IMG/VR virus record: IMGVR_UViG_3300031951_000083
Span: 22,340-86,339 of that record
DNA length: 64,000 nucleotides
DNA from: a virus
Reading direction: 5' to 3' (one strand)
A program made the position numbers and the translations under genes. The first letter of the stretch is position 1. The number at the start of each line of letters is the position of its first letter. The notes beneath the pieces were generated by a model. That model was not told where the DNA came from. It did no database searches and saw nothing but the letters and a program-made list of their open reading frames with translations. Of this stretch, positions 1,208 to 55,705 are shown piece by piece.

Positions 1208-1388
1208 TACAATATTTTACCCAATTGCTATATTATGCACTTTTTCCATTCTATCAGGAGGAACAACAATCTGTTATCCATCCCCACCCAACCACCCCAA
1301 AGTTAAAGATCCTCCATAACACCATCCAAATATTTTTCCCATAACAATCCCCCAATAGTGAACAACCTTATATAAAACACTCCCCTCT

Positions 1389-2803: not shown

Positions 2804-3040
2804 ATGCAAACAATTCCAAAAATTGGACTGGTGAATGCTGTAGCTACACCACCAAGACCTGTAAATATGCTCACAATGATTATTAATGAGGAATTCCACA
2901 TGTCTTCACGACACATGATGATATATATGTGCGTGTATACAATGGAAGAGCTCATTTATTCACGTGCTGGGATAGCCAAAAGGCATCTCAAGGCATATGA
3001 TGCTGCTCTTGAGGAATTACAAGAACAAAGAGCCCATTAA
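2804..3040 (+). CDS. hypothetical small protein
   Basis: This 78-aa protein (MQTIPKIGLVNAVATPPRP...) is Met-rich in its centre and ends in a Glu/Gln-rich helix. No family recognised. Its TAA lies in the loop of the following terminator. Confidence 0.55.
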   Translation: MQTIPKIGLVNAVATPPRPVNMLTMIINEEFHMSSRHMMIYMCVYTMEELIYSRAGIAKRHLKAYDAALEELQEQRAH

Positions 3041-3052
3041 GGGCTCTTTTTG
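3027..3052 (+). terminator. rho-independent terminator overlapping a stop codon
   Basis: AGAGCCC and GGGCTCT pair across ATTAA, followed by TTTTTG. The stop codon at 3038-3040 is in the loop. Confidence 0.85.
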
Positions 3053-3059
3053 TTAATGC

Positions 3060-3430
3060 ACCATAACTCTTGTGGATATAAAGACTTCTTACAAAAAAGG
3101 TATCAAAGCGCAGAAGAGCGTACCTGTAATGTTCCTGTAAAATGGAGAGTAAGATGTGAAACCACCTGATTAATTATAAATCTGCAGCAGAATACAGATA
3201 CCTAGTAATAGGTCAACGGATTAGTTACTTAAGAGTGCTTAATTGCGAAGTAGAAACACTAATCATTTAATCAGCTCCTAAGGAAGAGCAGTTGTAATAG
3301 AACCCAACTGAGGTCGATGTTATCCTGATTTAGTTCAGGCTGTAGTGGACTCTACATGAGACTACATGAAATCATACTACTATTACAACTGAGTTGCAGA
3401 AGGGCAATTTATTGCTAAACTCAAAAACCA
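3060..3430 (+). ncRNA. structured noncoding RNA of about 370 nt, family unknown
   Basis: No coding frame is supportable here, but base-pairing is dense. AGGTA/TACCT pairs 3098-3102 with 3121-3125. ATCTG/CAGAT pairs 3180-3184 with 3195-3199, and ACCTA-GTAA-TAGGT (3200-3213) is capped by a GNRA tetraloop. GATTAGT/ACTAATC pairs 3219-3225 with 3258-3264. A perfect 12-bp helix joins 3289-3300 and 3380-3391, enclosing the CCTGA/TCAGG hairpin near 3324-3339, and GAGTT/AACTC follows. It lies behind a terminator and in front of a protein gene. It shares the words GAGCAGTT and TAGTTCAGG, in the same order, with the RNA at 10703-11232. Transcript ends are estimated. Confidence 0.6.
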
Positions 3431-9547: not shown

Positions 9548-9570
9548 ATTTGGGTTATGATGAGGAAGAA

Positions 9571-9600
9571 AACAGCCCTTGAAATATAGGGCTGTTTTTA
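9571..9600 (+). terminator. rho-independent terminator
   Basis: AACAGCCC (9571-9578) pairs with GGGCTGTT (9589-9596), followed by a T run. It separates the protein operon from the tmRNA gene. Confidence 0.85.
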
Positions 9601-9601
9601 T

Positions 9602-9609
9602 TATCTTTG
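9602..9609 (+). promoter_or_regulatory. -7 element of the tmRNA promoter
   Basis: TATCTTTG matches TAnnTTTG and lies 13 nt before the predicted tmRNA 5' end. The -33 box is less clear because it falls in the T run of the upstream terminator. Confidence 0.55.
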
Positions 9610-9622
9610 TCAAAAAGCATAT

Positions 9623-10022
9623 GGGCCCGTATTGGTTTTGACAGCAAAGGAGTGGGTATGTACACATGCAGAGAGATGATACTGTCTCTTAATACTGTAT
9701 CGAAAAACAAATGCTAAGACTCGTTCTCAGCGTGTAGCAGAAGGTGAAGCTATCCTGGCTTCTATCTTCCAGACTGAAGCAGTAGCTGCCTAAGTCCTAC
9801 GGGGTAGTTCATACCTGGCAACATAAACTGAACAAACTGTTTTCCTGGTTTTCTCAAAACTAGGTGGTGGAGCAGTCACAAACCAGTGACTCCAAAATCC
9901 TTACCGCACTCTTAGGATATAAGTGAGTGTTTACGGTGCAGCAGCAATGCAGTACTAAGCATGTGAGACGTTGTATGTACAAACTATTTGTTTGGACAAG
10001 GGTTCGACTCCCTTCGGGTCCA
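9623..10022 (+). ncRNA. ssrA: transfer-messenger RNA (tmRNA) with a 26-residue tag
   Basis: The 5' end GGGCCCG (9623-9629) pairs over 7 bp, with one G-U, with CGGGTCC (10015-10021); the discriminator A is 10022 and CCA is not encoded. The T arm AAGGG-TTCGACT-CCCTT precedes the 3' acceptor strand, and the 5' D-loop-like TTGGTTTTGACAGC is characteristic of tmRNA. Helix P2 is present as CACATGC (9663-9669) with GCATGTG (9959-9965). The tag frame most likely resumes at GCT 9713 and stops at TAA 9791, beginning AKTRSQRVAEG and ending FQTEAVAA. The AVAA end is the proteolysis signal expected of trans-translation. The tag is much longer than the usual 8-15 residues. It would release stalled ribosomes and mark products for degradation. 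The resume codon is inferred. Confidence 0.92.
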
Positions 10023-10048
10023 CTTAGTTGTTAGTAGATTGGTAACAA

Positions 10049-10085
10049 ACCCCACTGTATTTCTATACTGGTGGGGTAATTTTAA
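10049..10085 (+). terminator. tmRNA terminator
   Basis: ACCCCAC (10049-10055) pairs with GTGGGGT (10071-10077), followed by AATTTT. Confidence 0.7.
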
Positions 10086-10102
10086 ATCATTAATCAAAAG
10101 AT

Positions 10103-10306
10103 ATGACAAACAAAATTTGGCATAAAGTTGAAATAGCAACAGAAGATCAAAATGTTTCAATCTATCCTACAGAAGGATTTAATGGACTTGTTATTGAAGC
10201 AAAAGAAATGAATGATTCTCCAAGTCCAAGACTCTATCTCAACAGGAACGAAATGGAACTGTTGATATTGAAAATGAAAGAGATGATGGATTATGTAGAA
10301 TCTTAA
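10103..10306 (+). CDS. hypothetical small protein inside the RNA island
   Basis: This 67-aa protein (MTNKIWHKVEIATEDQNVSI, ending MKEMMDYVES) has no recognised family. It is the only protein gene between the tmRNA and the structured RNA segments, and its TAA directly abuts the first helix of the next RNA. Confidence 0.6.
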   Translation: MTNKIWHKVEIATEDQNVSIYPTEGFNGLVIEAKEMNDSPSPRLYLNRNEMELLILKMKEMMDYVES

Positions 10307-10423
10307 ATATCTATGGGTGTATGTGTTTATTGCGTTGGGCGATGCCCATAAATACAATTTCAACTGGGGTTTCTGGGAAACACGCAAACCAAGTGAATAG
10401 CCCACACAAAAGCCCATAGATAT
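10307..10423 (+). ncRNA. compact structured RNA, about 117 nt
   Basis: A closing 11-bp helix ATATCTATGGG (10307-10317) with CCCATAGATAT (10413-10423) encloses two further elements: GTGTTTAT/ATAAATAC around a GGGC-GAT-GCCC hairpin, and GGTTT/AAACC with a competing GTTT/AAAC pairing. The architecture is that of a multi-branch RNA. No Rfam family is recognised by eye. Confidence 0.55.
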
Positions 10424-10439
10424 ATAAGATAAGTTCTTT

Positions 10440-10626
10440 AAGATAAAAAACAGGGAAAGGATGATAGTGATGATGGATACAATTCCTGCTATTATTGCGC
10501 CCTGTTAAGTTCTTTGTAGTTGGTGTGGCTCGGTGGGGTTGTGTAAAAGCAAAACTACCTTGCAAGCCATGATTTAGTCTTTGCCTAAAAAGTAGGGAGA
10601 ATCCCCCTACCACCAACTACATTTTT
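10440..10626 (+). ncRNA. structured RNA segment with 3' terminator-like helix
   Basis: AACAGGG (10449-10455) pairs with CCCTGTT (10500-10506). GTAGTTGGTG (10516-10525) pairs perfectly with CACCAACTAC (10611-10620), followed by ATTTTT. Inside the second helix GTAGGG/CCCTAC forms another hairpin. No protein frame is convincing here. Confidence 0.5.
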
Positions 10627-10702
10627 AAGCGTGGAATGGCTACCAATTAGAAATAATTGTACGTGGTTAAAGCCTAATAATAAATCCAACCACGCTTTTT
10701 TA
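10627..10702 (+). ncRNA. small structured RNA with GAAA tetraloop and terminator
   Basis: AAGCGTGG (10627-10634) pairs with CCACGCTT (10690-10697), followed by a T run. Inside are GGCT/AGCC pairing and the hairpin CAATTA-GAAA-TAATTG (10644-10659), a 6-bp stem capped by a GNRA tetraloop. Confidence 0.55.
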
Positions 10703-11232
10703 AGTTCTTTAACAACTACTGATTGACTACAAACAATACTCTTGAGCAGTTATCAACGGCTGTAAATCCTAAATAGTTCAGGATGAATCTTAACCATGTC
10801 AGAGTAAGGAGAGTTATCTCACAGTTCTAAGATGTGAGTGGTTTGAGTCGATGTGGCAAGCGGTTACCCGAGGTAACTTAATCATGAATCAACATGAGCA
10901 ACGCTTACTACCCTACTTAGAAGGCAGTAGTTGTTATCTTCTATGTTGTCTGTGAATCACATTAAACAGTCAGTCGTTAAACATTGATACGACTTTAAAC
11001 AAAGAAGGTTACCCTGAATTGACAGGGTGTTAATTGATGTCCAAGAGCCTTAGCAAAGTTCGCAACTTTGGGTGAATCTGGAAATTAACGGAGTAATCCA
11101 CACGTGTTGTTCCCTTGAGCAAGGAATATAACAGAGCAGGTTAAAACTACTTAGGCATTATCCTGACAACACGAATGAGTGCTTCTACTTACCCTAGTCA
11201 GAAATGATGGGTGGAGTAGTTATTTTTTAATC
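10703..11232 (+). ncRNA. large ornate structured RNA, about 530 nt, GOLLD/ROOL-like candidate
   Basis: Many perfect helices occur without a coding frame: TACTCT/AGAGTA (10737-10742, 10801-10806), ATCCT/AGGAT around TAGTTC, CTCACA/TGTGAG (10818, 10833), GTTACC/GGTAAC (10863, 10872), ACCCTG/CAGGGT (11011, 11023), GTTAATT/AATTAAC (11029, 11083) enclosing CAAAGTT/AACTTTG, and CGTGTTGT/ACAACACG (11103, 11166). A final helix CTACT-ACCC / GGGT-AGTAG ends in TTTTTT at 11223-11228. Size, helix density and position next to phage tmRNA and tRNA genes recall the GOLLD and ROOL giant RNA classes. The family assignment is an inference. Confidence 0.6.
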
Positions 11233-11490
11233 TGATGAAAAATTTATCAAGATACACGTTGAAATCTACCAACGGTTAATTAGAAGGTTATAGTAATATA
11301 ACCCACAGGTGAGGATGTATGAGATAAGCCTCTGTTTACTGTGAGAAGTTCTCAGCAAGTAGTTAAAACGGATAAGTTCAAAGTCGTATCCCAAAGTACA
11401 GGTAATTAACTACGTGACCCTACTCTTACAGAATGAAATGCAACGTCATGAATTTGATGGCTGATTCTGTAAGACAAGAGGGTGCTAAAT
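11233..11490 (+). ncRNA. structured RNA segment before the tRNA-like gene
   Basis: GGTTATA-GTAA-TATAACC (11286-11303) is a GNRA-capped hairpin. CACAG/CTGTG follows, GTAGTTAA (11359-11366) pairs with TTAACTAC (11406-11413), and CTTACAGAAT (11425-11434) pairs over 10 bp with ATTCTGTAAG (11464-11473) inside ACCCT/AGGGT (11417, 11479). It may be a separate RNA or the 3' half of the preceding one. Confidence 0.5.
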
Positions 11491-11494
11491 AAAC

Positions 11495-11593
11495 AGTCAG
11501 GTGGCGGAACTGGCTAGACGCGCTATGATTCATCTCAAGTGTCTTGGAAAATGCATTGACCTTGACGTACAGGTTCGAATCCTGTCCTGACTA
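11495..11593 (+). tRNA. class II tRNA, Leu-like, anticodon unclear
   Basis: The acceptor stem AGTCAGG/CCTGACT is perfect over 7 bp (11495-11501, 11586-11592) with discriminator A at 11593. The D region TGGCGGAACTGGCTAGACGC is the tRNA-Leu form, and the T arm ACAGG-TTCGAAT-CCTGT is perfect. The anticodon arm is abnormal: a Leu-like 17-nt arm at 11523-11539 has mismatches in the stem and would place TCA at 34-36, while the only good Leu loop (CTCAAGT) is displaced. The variable region (about 29 nt, GTC..GAC) is longer than usual. Either the gene is decayed, it carries an insertion, or it folds in a non-standard way. Confidence 0.65.
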
Positions 11594-11607
11594 CTAAAAC
11601 AACAAAT

Positions 11608-45277: not shown

Positions 45278-45514
45278 TTACAAACTTGCTTTGTTCTCTT
45301 GAGGAACTTCTTTAACAATATCAGCTTCTACAGCTCTTGCTAACACTCTTTCAACAGCATCATTCGCCTCGCTAGCCATTAGGATTCTACCTGCTTCTGG
45401 TGTATTCAGAATAGCACGAAAAGCGTTTAACATCAGACCAAATTCAGAACCTGTCAGTTCAAACTTGTCTTCAGGATTCCATGTGTAACGAGCATTAGGA
45501 TTGTACGTTGCCAT
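45278..45514 (-). CDS. hypothetical protein, first gene of the basic-protein operon
   Basis: This 78-aa protein (MATYNPNARYTWNPEDKFEL, GLMLNAFRAILNTPEAGRIL) is mainly helical and, unlike the following genes, not strongly basic. It lies behind a well-formed promoter. Confidence 0.65.
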   Translation of the reverse strand: MATYNPNARYTWNPEDKFELTGSEFGLMLNAFRAILNTPEAGRILMASEANDAVERVLARAVEADIVKEVPQENKASL

Positions 45515-45535
45515 TATATAATTTTTTGGTTACCA

Positions 45536-45567
45536 CAAATTTATGTTGTAACAACCATTAGTCCAAA
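45536..45567 (-). promoter_or_regulatory. late-region promoter
   Basis: On the minus strand TTTG (plus 45564-45567), 20 nt, TAAATTTG (plus 45536-45543). The -33 box lies within the end of the upstream gene. It drives the basic-protein operon. Confidence 0.75.
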
Positions 45568-45842
45568 TTTATTTCAAAGGTCACTGTACTGGAAGTCTTG
45601 ATGCTTTTTGATAAGTCAAGTCTTATTCCAAACATGTTGTGAAACTTCAACAGTTCCTCAAGAATCAACTGTGTATACTTGGGAACTGATGGGGCCACTC
45701 TGAAATGATATGAGTGAGGTTTTTTCGTAATCTCCATGGAGCAAAGTTCATCAACTGAATCTATCACTCCTTCAAGATGAGAGAAATAAGCGAGCTCATT
45801 GTCTGCCATCACTTGAGGAAAAAACTTCTTACTGATTGTCAT
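45558..45842 (-). CDS. hypothetical protein
   Basis: This 94-aa protein (PSVPKYTQLILEELLKFHNM) is joined by a 1-nt overlap to the ferritin-like gene. Not recognised. Confidence 0.6.
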   Translation of the reverse strand: MTISKKFFPQVMADNELAYFSHLEGVIDSVDELCSMEITKKPHSYHFRVAPSVPKYTQLILEELLKFHNMFGIRLDLSKSIKTSSTVTFEINLD

Positions 45843-47541: not shown

Positions 47542-48558
47542 TTAATAGTTAAGGTTGTATTTTTGACTAAGTTTTTTCAGTTCGTTTGCGTAATACCATG
47601 TACATTTAACTTGAGCTTTCTCATCGTTCAATACAGCTTCCAGATGTGCATCCTTTGTAGGATCACCACTCTGGTGGTATTTAGCTTTGTAGAAGTAGTT
47701 TATACCATCCATGTTGGTACCTACTACACCTGCATTATGAAGGATCGGATGAGTTTCTAGCTTGGTGATTGGGTCAGGGGCCCAAGAGAAGCCCATTTCT
47801 GGAATCACTTCCACTTGTTTCTCTCTCACCCAAAGATTCCACAGGACAGCCCACATATCAGCACACCAACTTTGGAAACCTTTGTCTTCGCTTTGGAAAT
47901 ATTCCTTATTGATTCTCTGTAAGTAGGATCTGATCAGAATACAATCATTCATCACCTTGTTCCAAAAAGCTGCGTCAATGTTCTTCAGGAGATATTGAGC
48001 TCCTCCAGAATGGTCATTGTTTGCTTCAGCTTCTTGTCTGCTGATACCAATTACACTACCAATCTCAGCTAGGATGTCTCGTGTTTTATATTCTTCCAGT
48101 TTATCAGGAAGAACATCGTTCACCTTGCTGTCAAAGTATTTAGCGTTGATGTAGCTATTCGTATCAGACAGATAACAAACATCGTTTTCTACAAACTGTT
48201 GAATATCAAAATGTTCTGTAAAAATAACATCTGAATCACAGTAGAGGATAGCACTATTGCTAAGTTCAGGATGCTCCTTCCAATGTCTCCATAAAGTGTA
48301 TGGTCTAAGCACTGGAATATAGATTCCTAATAAGGAACTTACATCATGTTCATCTTTATAGAAGTGAAACTGTGCTTCTGGATAGAGATCAACTATCTGT
48401 TGCCATTTAGGATTCTGAGTTCTGTAATTGGGAGTGAACACCAGCACAATTGCTTTATCGCTCTCTCCTCTGTTTTTCAAACTCTCCAACCAAAGATGAA
48501 CTTGCCATGTATAGTAGTTATCATCTGGTTGGACGCAGACATACTTAAGATCCTTCAT
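47542..48558 (-). CDS. glycosyltransferase-like protein
   Basis: This 338-aa protein begins LKYVCVQPDDNYYTWQVHLW and carries the DxD site ILYCDSDVIFTEHFD at about residue 105. The rest resembles nucleotide-diphospho-sugar transferases that act on proteins. Its position between virion genes suggests virion or host-surface glycosylation. Confidence 0.65.
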   Translation of the reverse strand: MKDLKYVCVQPDDNYYTWQVHLWLESLKNRGESDKAIVLVFTPNYRTQNPKWQQIVDLYPEAQFHFYKDEHDVSSLLGIYIPVLRPYTLWRHWKEHPELSNSAILYCDSDVIFTEHFDIQQFVENDVCYLSDTNSYINAKYFDSKVNDVLPDKLEEYKTRDILAEIGSVIGISRQEAEANNDHSGGAQYLLKNIDAAFWNKVMNDCILIRSYLQRINKEYFQSEDKGFQSWCADMWAVLWNLWVREKQVEVIPEMGFSWAPDPITKLETHPILHNAGVVGTNMDGINYFYKAKYHQSGDPTKDAHLEAVLNDEKAQVKCTWYYANELKKLSQKYNLNY

Positions 48559-54968: not shown

Positions 54969-55306
54969 AATTCTTCGTTCAGTTCAATGATATAGTTGCA
55001 AAGAACGCCCCACTTCATTTTTGTAAACAGAGATTTCAATTTCTCAAAGTCACTGTCTTCAAGTTCAAGAGTGGCTTCTGTTGCAAGAAACTCATCTGAA
55101 GGCTCTTGTTTTTCATCCTTGATGGTAAACTTGTCTTTGAAAGCGTCAATCTTCTCAAGAAGTCTAAGACGTTTCATCATTTCATCAATGTCATAACCAC
55201 CTTGTTCAGGACTATTCACCGCCATTCTTAGAAGAGCATGAGTGGTAAGAACTGTAGGAACACCGTTAATTTCTTCCTTGACCACTTTCAAGTTGATTGA
55301 TTTCAT
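54953..55306 (-). CDS. hypothetical late protein
   Basis: This 117-aa helical protein (MKSINLKVVKEEINGVPTVL, DEMMKRLRLLEKIDAF) is acidic in its second half. It could be a small tail or assembly protein. Not recognised. Confidence 0.6.
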   Translation of the reverse strand: MKSINLKVVKEEINGVPTVLTTHALLRMAVNSPEQGGYDIDEMMKRLRLLEKIDAFKDKFTIKDEKQEPSDEFLATEATLELEDSDFEKLKSLFTKMKWGVLCNYIIELNEELKQAQ

Positions 55307-55325
55307 ACGTTTTGAAGATTTAACT

Positions 55326-55333
55326 CAAAGATA
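55326..55333 (-). promoter_or_regulatory. -7 element TATCTTTG
   Basis: On the minus strand TATCTTTG lies 19 nt before the ATG at 55306. The -33 box is weak. Confidence 0.5.
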
Positions 55334-55341
55334 GGTAATTT

Positions 55342-55653
55342 TTAAATTGGTTCACATTCTCCAGCATAAATAATTTCCATACCACTACCAGTGATCGAAC
55401 CTGTTTTACAACAAATTACATTTTCCAAACCTACAGGAAGACCACTATCATCTACACTTGTACCATCACAACTGATGTAAGATAGAAAGTTTCTGTCATC
55501 TTTTACAGAGATTTTGTAAAGAGAACAAGGACCTGAAGGAGGAGCTAATGTTGTAGTGGATGTGGTTGTAACTGGATCTTTCTGTCCTTTAAGGATAAGA
55601 TACACCAGTACAACACATGCAATTGCTACAATAATGACAAAAAGTGTGTTCAT
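55342..55653 (-). CDS. membrane-anchored protein with Thr-rich linker
   Basis: This 103-aa protein has an N-terminal helix (TLFVIIVAIACVVLVYLIL), then PVTTTSTTTLAPPSGPCS and a Cys-containing domain (SYISCDGTSVDDSGLP, VICCKTGS). The Thr-rich linker repeats the theme at 47308 and 48584. Confidence 0.65.
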   Translation of the reverse strand: MNTLFVIIVAIACVVLVYLILKGQKDPVTTTSTTTLAPPSGPCSLYKISVKDDRNFLSYISCDGTSVDDSGLPVGLENVICCKTGSITGSGMEIIYAGECEPI

Positions 55654-55670
55654 ATTTATTTGATTTTAGA

Positions 55671-55678
55671 CAAAGGTA
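55671..55678 (-). promoter_or_regulatory. -7 element TACCTTTG
   Basis: On the minus strand TACCTTTG lies 17 nt before the ATG at 55653. The -33 box is unclear. Confidence 0.45.
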
Positions 55679-55705
55679 GCTAATTTTATCAAGAGTTAAA
55701 GGTTT

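Follow-up and report, generated by a model that had tools for sequence, protein, structure and literature searches.

Among the described RNAs closest to those reported here are GOLLD and ROOL, which are encoded by phages and prophages near tRNA islands and form RNA-only cages; in GOLLD, one region is conserved and another less so (PMC12286853). The present analysis concerns an island of about 2 kb (9550-11600) within a window, that is, the whole stretch of DNA analysed, of 64 kb out of the 86,339-base IMG/VR virus record IMGVR_UViG_3300031951_000083. We tentatively regard this island as an array of phage-encoded structured RNA cassettes, with at least three candidate new families. Two of these, a tRNA-like family and a kissing-loop family, are of the same design: a constant folded frame carries an insert that is different in nearly every copy. 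Hundreds of fragments from environmental phages, some of them on contigs as long as 373 kb, carry such RNAs, and no description of the families was found in Rfam 15 or in the open-licence papers searched.

Like GOLLD and ROOL, these RNAs are phage-encoded, structured and located near tRNA genes. However, they match neither covariance model and have conserved sequences of their own (GTGTTGTTCCCTTGAGAAAGGAAT, AAACATTGA and GACCCTACTC...GAGGGTGC); furthermore, one form of the kissing-loop RNA (type B) is much shorter and the second frame is tRNA-like. The Rfam model of OLE was also unmatched, both in the island (E<=10) and in the loci carrying kissing-loop RNAs of types A and B (E<=1). With transfer-messenger RNA (tmRNA), a real copy of which lies in the same island, the tRNA-like RNAs share acceptor, T and D elements and the presence of other RNA in place of the anticodon arm, but their median length is 97 nt, nearly all copies have U3-A70 (and no G3-U70), there is no conserved tag open reading frame (ORF) and the insert is unconserved. 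Bacterial Y RNAs of the YrlA type are also composed of a tRNA-mimicking module joined to another RNA part; the tRNA-like RNAs differ from them in having no Rfam match to such RNAs and an insert that changes in almost every copy. Their D arm (GGTGGCGGAATTGGTAGACGC) and discriminator A73, which we take to be tRNA-Leu-like, are compatible with tRNA-Leu identity but, unlike in the class II tRNA-Leu, the anticodon and variable arms are swapped for unrelated inserts in most copies.

Rfam calls in 9600-11600 consist only of the tmRNA and a weak tRNA, and in the remaining 1.2 kb of the island no Rfam family was matched, although the threshold was as loose as E<=10. When 9550-11600 was used as a single query against 50,697 phage records (E 1e-5) no match was obtained, a relative of one module being found later with a better query. 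All island segments outside the Rfam calls fold better than dinucleotide shuffles, in agreement with the structured segments proposed in the initial annotation, with z between -2.4 and -5.3 (10305-10425, -3.2; 10440-10510, -5.3; 10516-10626, -4.1; 10626-10706, -2.4; 10710-11232, -3.0; 11233-11490, -2.9). The same annotation considered about 2 kb as given to RNA, and this view is strengthened: helices covary in homologues (kissing-loop types A and B, acceptor of the tRNA-like RNAs), compensatory changes occur in the second large RNA and element lengths are not multiples of three, and for these reasons protein coding is disfavoured.

The tRNA-like RNA of the window (11495-11593, on the plus strand like all island features given here) matches Rfam RF00005 with 36.1 bits (gathering 29) and has the acceptor AGTCAGG/CCTGACT-A73, the D arm already mentioned and the T arm CAGGTTCGAATCCTG, while a hypervariable insert at about 11521-11568 replaces the anticodon and variable arms. 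ARAGORN did not call this gene in the window. It had been described as a class II tRNA-like gene, and the tRNA match stands, but the ordinary anticodon arm is absent. Copies of the fixed acceptor/D/T frame (AGTCAGG...CCTGACTA) were searched for by the T-half only (RGTTCRANTCYTGTYCTGACTAC), the D arm lying outside the pattern, and at least 120 stretches were found; the 3' end of the window gene was met again in polymerase-related contigs. Among the matches listed, 183 unique copies from 120 loci have a nearly invariant acceptor, D arm and T arm (the D stem forms in 171 of the 183), with U8, A14, G18 and the TTCRANT loop conserved and positions past the D arm unconserved. Their inserts, 16-140 nt long, fall into 161 families, 145 of which are singletons. 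The same insert families recur across contigs with compensatory-looking changes, and identical inserts are seen with different flanks in different contigs. Pairing at the position of the anticodon stem is near the shuffled level (mean 2.88 versus 2.75 of 5 pairs), and a standard anticodon arm (5 bp, 7 nt) was therefore rejected as a general feature; ARAGORN called 49 of 198 copies as tRNAs, with scattered anticodons, and left 149 uncalled.

The acceptor stem was evaluated by scanning for one changed base in its 3' half only and then reading the 5' half. Of 19 scored copies, some of them near-identical, 13 had the Watson-Crick partner in the distant 5' half: a 3' C was matched by G in 4/4 copies, a T by A in 4/5 (three of these four near-identical) and an A by T in 5/10, so that a 3' base changed to C or T was compensated in 8/9. 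Three further very short copies, beyond the scoring distance, visibly carry AGTTAGG. Since 3' changes are mostly compensated in the 5' half, the acceptor stem is maintained at the RNA level, mostly though not always. Other features of these loci were also observed. Inserts in L123, L131, L161, L197 and L203 contain a second T-arm-like sequence, e.g. TTGGTTCGATCCCAA, which gives the impression of a tRNA fragment placed inside the frame; in L131 (4305-8363) and L180 (4017-12853) dense ordinary tRNA genes are interleaved with tRNA-like RNAs; and in two sets of loci (L355, L361, L367; L259, L364, L369) the tRNA-like RNAs are minimal, at about 53-64 nt, with an insert that is nearly nil, and may show the frame at its simplest.

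Concerning the kissing-loop family, window positions 11090-11200 are similar to loci first retrieved for other reasons. The shared exact 24-mer GTGTTGTTCCCTTGAGAAAGGAAT was found in at least 120 stretches, and the two-block element occurs 147 times versus 0 in reversed sequence; in the type A and type B loci no Rfam model matched the family, at gathering score or at E<=1. In this architecture, helix P1 (GTGTTG/CAACAC) encloses a hairpin, P2; the other components are a hypervariable insert and a second part, and the P2 loop GAGAA is complementary to UUCUC of the second part. P1, P2, this loop-loop pairing and, in type A, a GNRA hairpin are the constants of the frame. Type B, about 75-125 nt long, has the hairpin GAGGACTTCTCATCCTC at its end. 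The longer type A is composed of a P0 hairpin with the loop AAACATTGA (48 of 50 type A elements; the stem covaries), the GNRA hairpin, the core, AATGAGTTCTCAGCAAGTAGTT, an insert, AACTACGTGACCCTACTC, another insert and GAGGGTGCTAAA.

The window contains two RNAs of this family in tandem. The first has a type A core (10972-11228) and consists of the P0 hairpin AGTCGT[TAAACATTGAT]ACGACT (10972-10994), the GNRA hairpin GGA[GUAA]UCC (11090-11099) and the core (11104-11184), in which P1 (11104-11109/11167-11172) and P2 (11110-11113/11123-11126) accompany the insert (11128-11165) and GAGCA (11117-11121) faces UGCUU (11180-11184); it ends in a terminator-like hairpin (11185-11219) with a U-run (11223-11228). 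The second (11233-11490, fold z -2.9) is a diverged type A copy with a GUAA hairpin (11286-11303), P1' (11304-11308/11339-11343), UGAGA (11320-11324) opposite UCUCA (11350-11354), P4 (11359-11365/11407-11413) and the hairpin P5 (11416-11434/11464-11484). The same tandem is carried by L280, with the compensatory changes GGTTAT/ATAACC to GATTAT/ATAATC, CACAG/CTGTG to CATAG/CTATG and GAGG/CCTC to GGGA/TCCC. The initial annotation had treated 10703-11232 as a single segment, which actually consists of a separate domain (10710-10936) and the first kissing-loop RNA with its terminator; its GNRA hairpins (10644-10659 with a GAAA loop, 11286-11303 with a GUAA loop) and the terminator-like ends (10690-10701 and 11185-11228) were instead found as proposed.

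Compensation between the two loops was predicted from the window (GAGCA:UGCUU), from L002 (GGGCA:UGCC) and from L102, and variants of the first loop alone were scanned. The prediction succeeded for 5 of 6 variants: GAUAA copies had UUAUC in 2/2 cases (L102, seen before, and L335, which is new) and GAGCA copies had UGCUC in 3/3. In type B, 97.7% of cells are paired, versus 96.4% in shuffled and 39-61% in slid alignments, while in type A 70 double-change cells were counted over the whole structure versus 21.9 in shuffled ones, 66 of the 70 coming from the GNRA stem alone. About 300 nt downstream of one type A core, L225 has a sub-threshold match to the Rfam DUF805b RNA (1208-1240, minus strand; 29.4 bits, gathering 35.6).

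A comparison with relatives reveals how the island is assembled. The nearest relative, L002, has 99.9% identity across 9550-10439 and lacks exactly 10440-10505 and approximately 10630-10702; the first junction is at the repeated TAAGTTCTTT and the second within the shared TTTTTAAG leading into TAAGTTCTTT. Cassette 1 (10308-10422; long-range helix TATCTATGGG/CCCATAGATA, fold z -3.2) is identical in L002. Cassette 2 (10440-10505; ACAGGG/CCCTGT, fold z -5.3) is precisely missing there, with the junction at a boxA-like repeat. Cassette 3 (10516-10620), between the two gaps, retains its outer helix GTAGTTGGTG/CACCAACTAC with the interior swapped, and cassette 4 (10627-10701), which has AAGCGTGG/CCACGCTT with a U-run (terminator-like) and the GAAA hairpin, is also missing. 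Window and L002 are 94% identical in the initial 330 nt of the large RNA, where changes occur in pairs, for example from ATCCT/AGGAT to ACCCT/AGGGT. The separate domain mentioned above, domain X (10710-10936; closing helix TAACAACTACTG/CAGTAGTTGTTA, 12/12 pairs), is a third module, common to two other contigs (L002 and L320), and in L320 too it follows boxA, the order being tRNA-like RNA, boxA, domain X, type B kissing-loop RNA and tRNA-like RNA. The proposal that the island forms one functional RNA module is consequently unsupported, because L002 is precisely without two cassettes and L320 has a different order: the pieces are separate cassettes, independently gained, lost and rearranged. A 67-aa ORF (10103-10306) precedes cassette 1 and has 71% nucleotide identity to a relative in L008.

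In rRNA operons the boxA consensus GTTCTTTRA comes after a TAnnTTTG promoter and ahead of untranslated RNA, and the promoter consensus of Bacteroidota is TTG...TAnnTTTG. Directly upstream of the tmRNA, the sequence TTG-N20-TATCTTTG (9579-9609, with TATCTTTG at 9602-9609) can be read directly and, from its likeness to the consensus, is presumably a Bacteroidota-type promoter. Three boxA-like elements precede modules of the island: TAAGTTCTTTA (10430-10440), TAAGTTCTTTG (10506-10516) and TAAGTTCTTTA(ACA) (10701-10711). Upstream of the arrays in other loci TATCTTTG is followed by boxA in the same order as in the window, and the boxA-like motif often comes after TATCTTTG. Searching for GTTCTTT[AG]A, with counts that include overlapping contigs, we found 56 sense matches in array regions (0.249/kb) versus 7 antisense (0.031/kb) and 0.034/kb in coding sequence, an approximately 8-fold higher density on the sense strand; permuted motifs gave 1-4 matches. 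When two mismatches to TAAGTTCTTTA were allowed over the whole window, the count was near chance (57 versus 44 expected), and the boxA reading is therefore based on the three near-exact window copies and on the enrichment across loci. These elements resemble rRNA boxA leaders in following a TAnnTTTG-type promoter ahead of untranslated RNA, but they lie upstream of phage RNA arrays and, in the window, are repeated before individual cassettes. Regarding spacing, exactly 4 nt separate a tRNA-like RNA from the following type B RNA in 8 cases, and in 22 of 82 the next tRNA-like RNA begins 15-19 nt past GAGG, directly after the type B hairpin; since only a few nucleotides lie between these units, the arrangement suggests a single precursor cut at the tRNA-like frames.

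The tmRNA was correctly recognised in the initial annotation (9623-10025; Rfam RF00023, 78.5 bits, gathering 47): ARAGORN decodes the tag AKTRSQRVAEGEAILASIFQTEAVAA, and the alanine identity pair G3-U70 can be read directly. tmRNAs were also seen in the relatives L044, L048, L050, L052, L072, L180 and L254, several with quite different tags, e.g. VELSTMDFEGLMAFVGGELEIAA. The phage genes of the window include DNA polymerase, RIIA/RIIB-like proteins and ribonucleotide reductase, and the nearest protein to the product of 47542-48558 is from Chryseobacterium phage MA9V-3 (33%). Because of this protein and of the Bacteroidota-type promoter ahead of the tmRNA, a Bacteroidota host is likely. Two gaps of about 500 nt (45319-45841 and 55197-55705) have no ORF of at least 60 aa on the plus or 120 aa on the minus strand.

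Among cultured phages, Cellulophaga phage phi14:2 (KC821624, KC821624.1; Crassvirales) possesses a complete type A RNA in 2908-3363 (L341:990-1445), in which P2 reads TCAC/GTGG and a tetraloop reads GUGA. The record of this phage places three minus-strand hypothetical ORFs (gp007-gp009) over this RNA, which are probably spurious. The Cellulophaga phages phi4:1 and phi17:2 keep just the 3' hairpin of type A (L343:2520-2600 and L344:2520-2600), downstream of a gene end resembling that of phi14:2. The whole tRNA-like frame was found in none of the 50,697 phage records, which represent cultured phages, and its T-half pattern gave 13 stretches in 84,980 species genomes, mostly contigs of metagenome-assembled genomes (MAGs) of Bacteroidota. 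One T-half match, L211 6860-6882, is in the isolate genome of Hymenobacter montanus and could be a prophage or an ordinary tRNA. The kissing-loop 23-mer had 0 matches in 297 genomes from the phylum of a Flavobacterium MAG, and a match in Pseudoalteromonas phage HM1 was rejected as chance (20 nt, second half missing).

We observe frames and their covariation, hypervariable inserts, gain and loss of cassettes and enrichment of boxA, and from these we infer the following explanation, to which we give a probability of roughly 0.45: the elements would be non-coding RNAs, transcribed in the manner of an rRNA or tRNA operon, with processing at boundaries that resemble those of tRNAs; a shared frame would serve a shared partner, and the variable inserts would be under diversifying selection. 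Judging from the motifs, the array would be transcribed from a Bacteroidota housekeeping promoter, and the boxA-like elements would recruit NusB/S10-type antitermination as in rRNA operons, allowing the long untranslated RNA to escape termination. Spacings of 2-5 nt point to host RNase P and RNase Z, which would cut at the tRNA-like frames and free the RNAs between them. Through the constant frame, all RNAs would dock on the same partner. In the case of the tRNA-like RNAs this would most plausibly be the host tRNA-handling machinery, namely processing and CCA-adding enzymes and possibly leucyl-tRNA synthetase, an enzyme that does not read the anticodon. The insert would be the surface for specificity or escape; an arms race would have diversified it, and phages would exchange it in the form of cassettes. 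Given the tRNA-like frame and the tmRNA, a link of the island to the tRNA pathway is plausible, while the action on host translation or on RNA particles put forward in the initial annotation is still conjecture.

Several observations weigh against this explanation. Compensation is missing in six of the 19 scored acceptor variants (C-A in five), and one independent kissing-loop case (the related contigs L336 and L340) has GAGGA with AACUC, with 3 loop-loop pairs left. Regions comprising D arm and insert fold on average no better than shuffles (z -0.14), and many inserts may therefore be without a strong fold by themselves. The ends of the inserts pair barely above chance (8.69 versus 8.25, standard deviation 0.17), an excess so marginal that a closing helix across the insert was rejected as a general rule. 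The locus around a tRNA-like insert shows no excess of antisense matches to that insert (30 versus 36.5 expected), so that no target is visible there and an antisense role on the own locus was rejected. Finally, the promoter and boxA assignments are made by similarity to consensus sequences.

It is also conceivable, although we consider it unlikely, that the kissing-loop RNAs add another class to the large ornate phage RNAs and, like GOLLD and ROOL, self-assemble into RNA-only particles, with GAGAA:UUCUC as an intermolecular contact and the tRNA-like RNAs as cargo or neighbours. The setting is the same, in phages and near tRNA islands, where RNA-only cages are known (PMC12286853); GNRA hairpins are present, and given the kissing loops RNA assemblies are possible. 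The loop-loop pairing does covary, but covariation cannot separate intra- from intermolecular pairing, the Rfam models of GOLLD and ROOL are unmatched and type B, at about 75-125 nt, is far below the 659 nt of ROOL or the more than 800 nt of GOLLD. The hypervariable-insert design of the tRNA-like frames would moreover be left unexplained.

That the cassettes are selfish or mobile, their frames being kept for recombination and their inserts left free as only the ends matter, appears improbable. Such elements would be in keeping with the way L002 precisely lacks two cassettes, at boxA repeats, with the identical inserts in different flanks and with the 8-bp terminal inverted repeat (TAGTCAGG/CCTGACTA) that can be read directly from many of the copies; the compensatory acceptor and loop-loop changes, however, keep RNA pairing and not DNA sequence, and positions of tRNA tertiary contacts are conserved in the tRNA-like frame. 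We give slightly less credit still to the possibility that the kissing-loop RNAs belong to mRNAs and act there in cis, as a leader, an attenuator or a processing signal, instead of being independent RNAs. Several type A elements do come directly after a gene stop and ahead of another ORF, and phi4:1 and phi17:2 retain the 3' hairpin alone below upstream sequence similar to that of phi14:2, but only very short spacers separate type B from the tRNA-like and tRNA genes on either side, where there is no mRNA to control, and the first RNA of the window ends in a terminator. Ordinary or decaying tRNAs are a very improbable explanation of the tRNA-like genes: the Rfam tRNA model matches many copies, D and T arms are tRNA-Leu-like and some copies have a plausible anticodon arm, but decay would affect all arms, whereas acceptor, D and T are near-invariant with the anticodon region free in length (16-140 nt) and sequence, and different contigs share insert families, with changes that look compensatory.

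Returning to the array of cassettes with constant frames, a broader and more speculative proposal is that Bacteroidota phages carry a diversifying RNA repertoire, in which arrays of non-coding RNAs with a few invariant frames and different inserts, transcribed in the way of rRNA and cut in the way of tRNA, serve as interchangeable effectors or decoys against the host machinery, comparable to the constant frame and variable loops of antibodies. These RNAs are very common in environmental phages and current annotation is blind to them, the kissing-loop family being absent from Rfam and the phi14:2 region being filled with hypothetical ORFs. As a complete copy is present in a cultured phage with a laboratory host, the question can be tested. 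If the proposal is true, the combination of a constant frame and a hypervariable insert would represent a new viral route to an RNA effector repertoire, and the role of large phage RNAs near tRNA genes would become testable.

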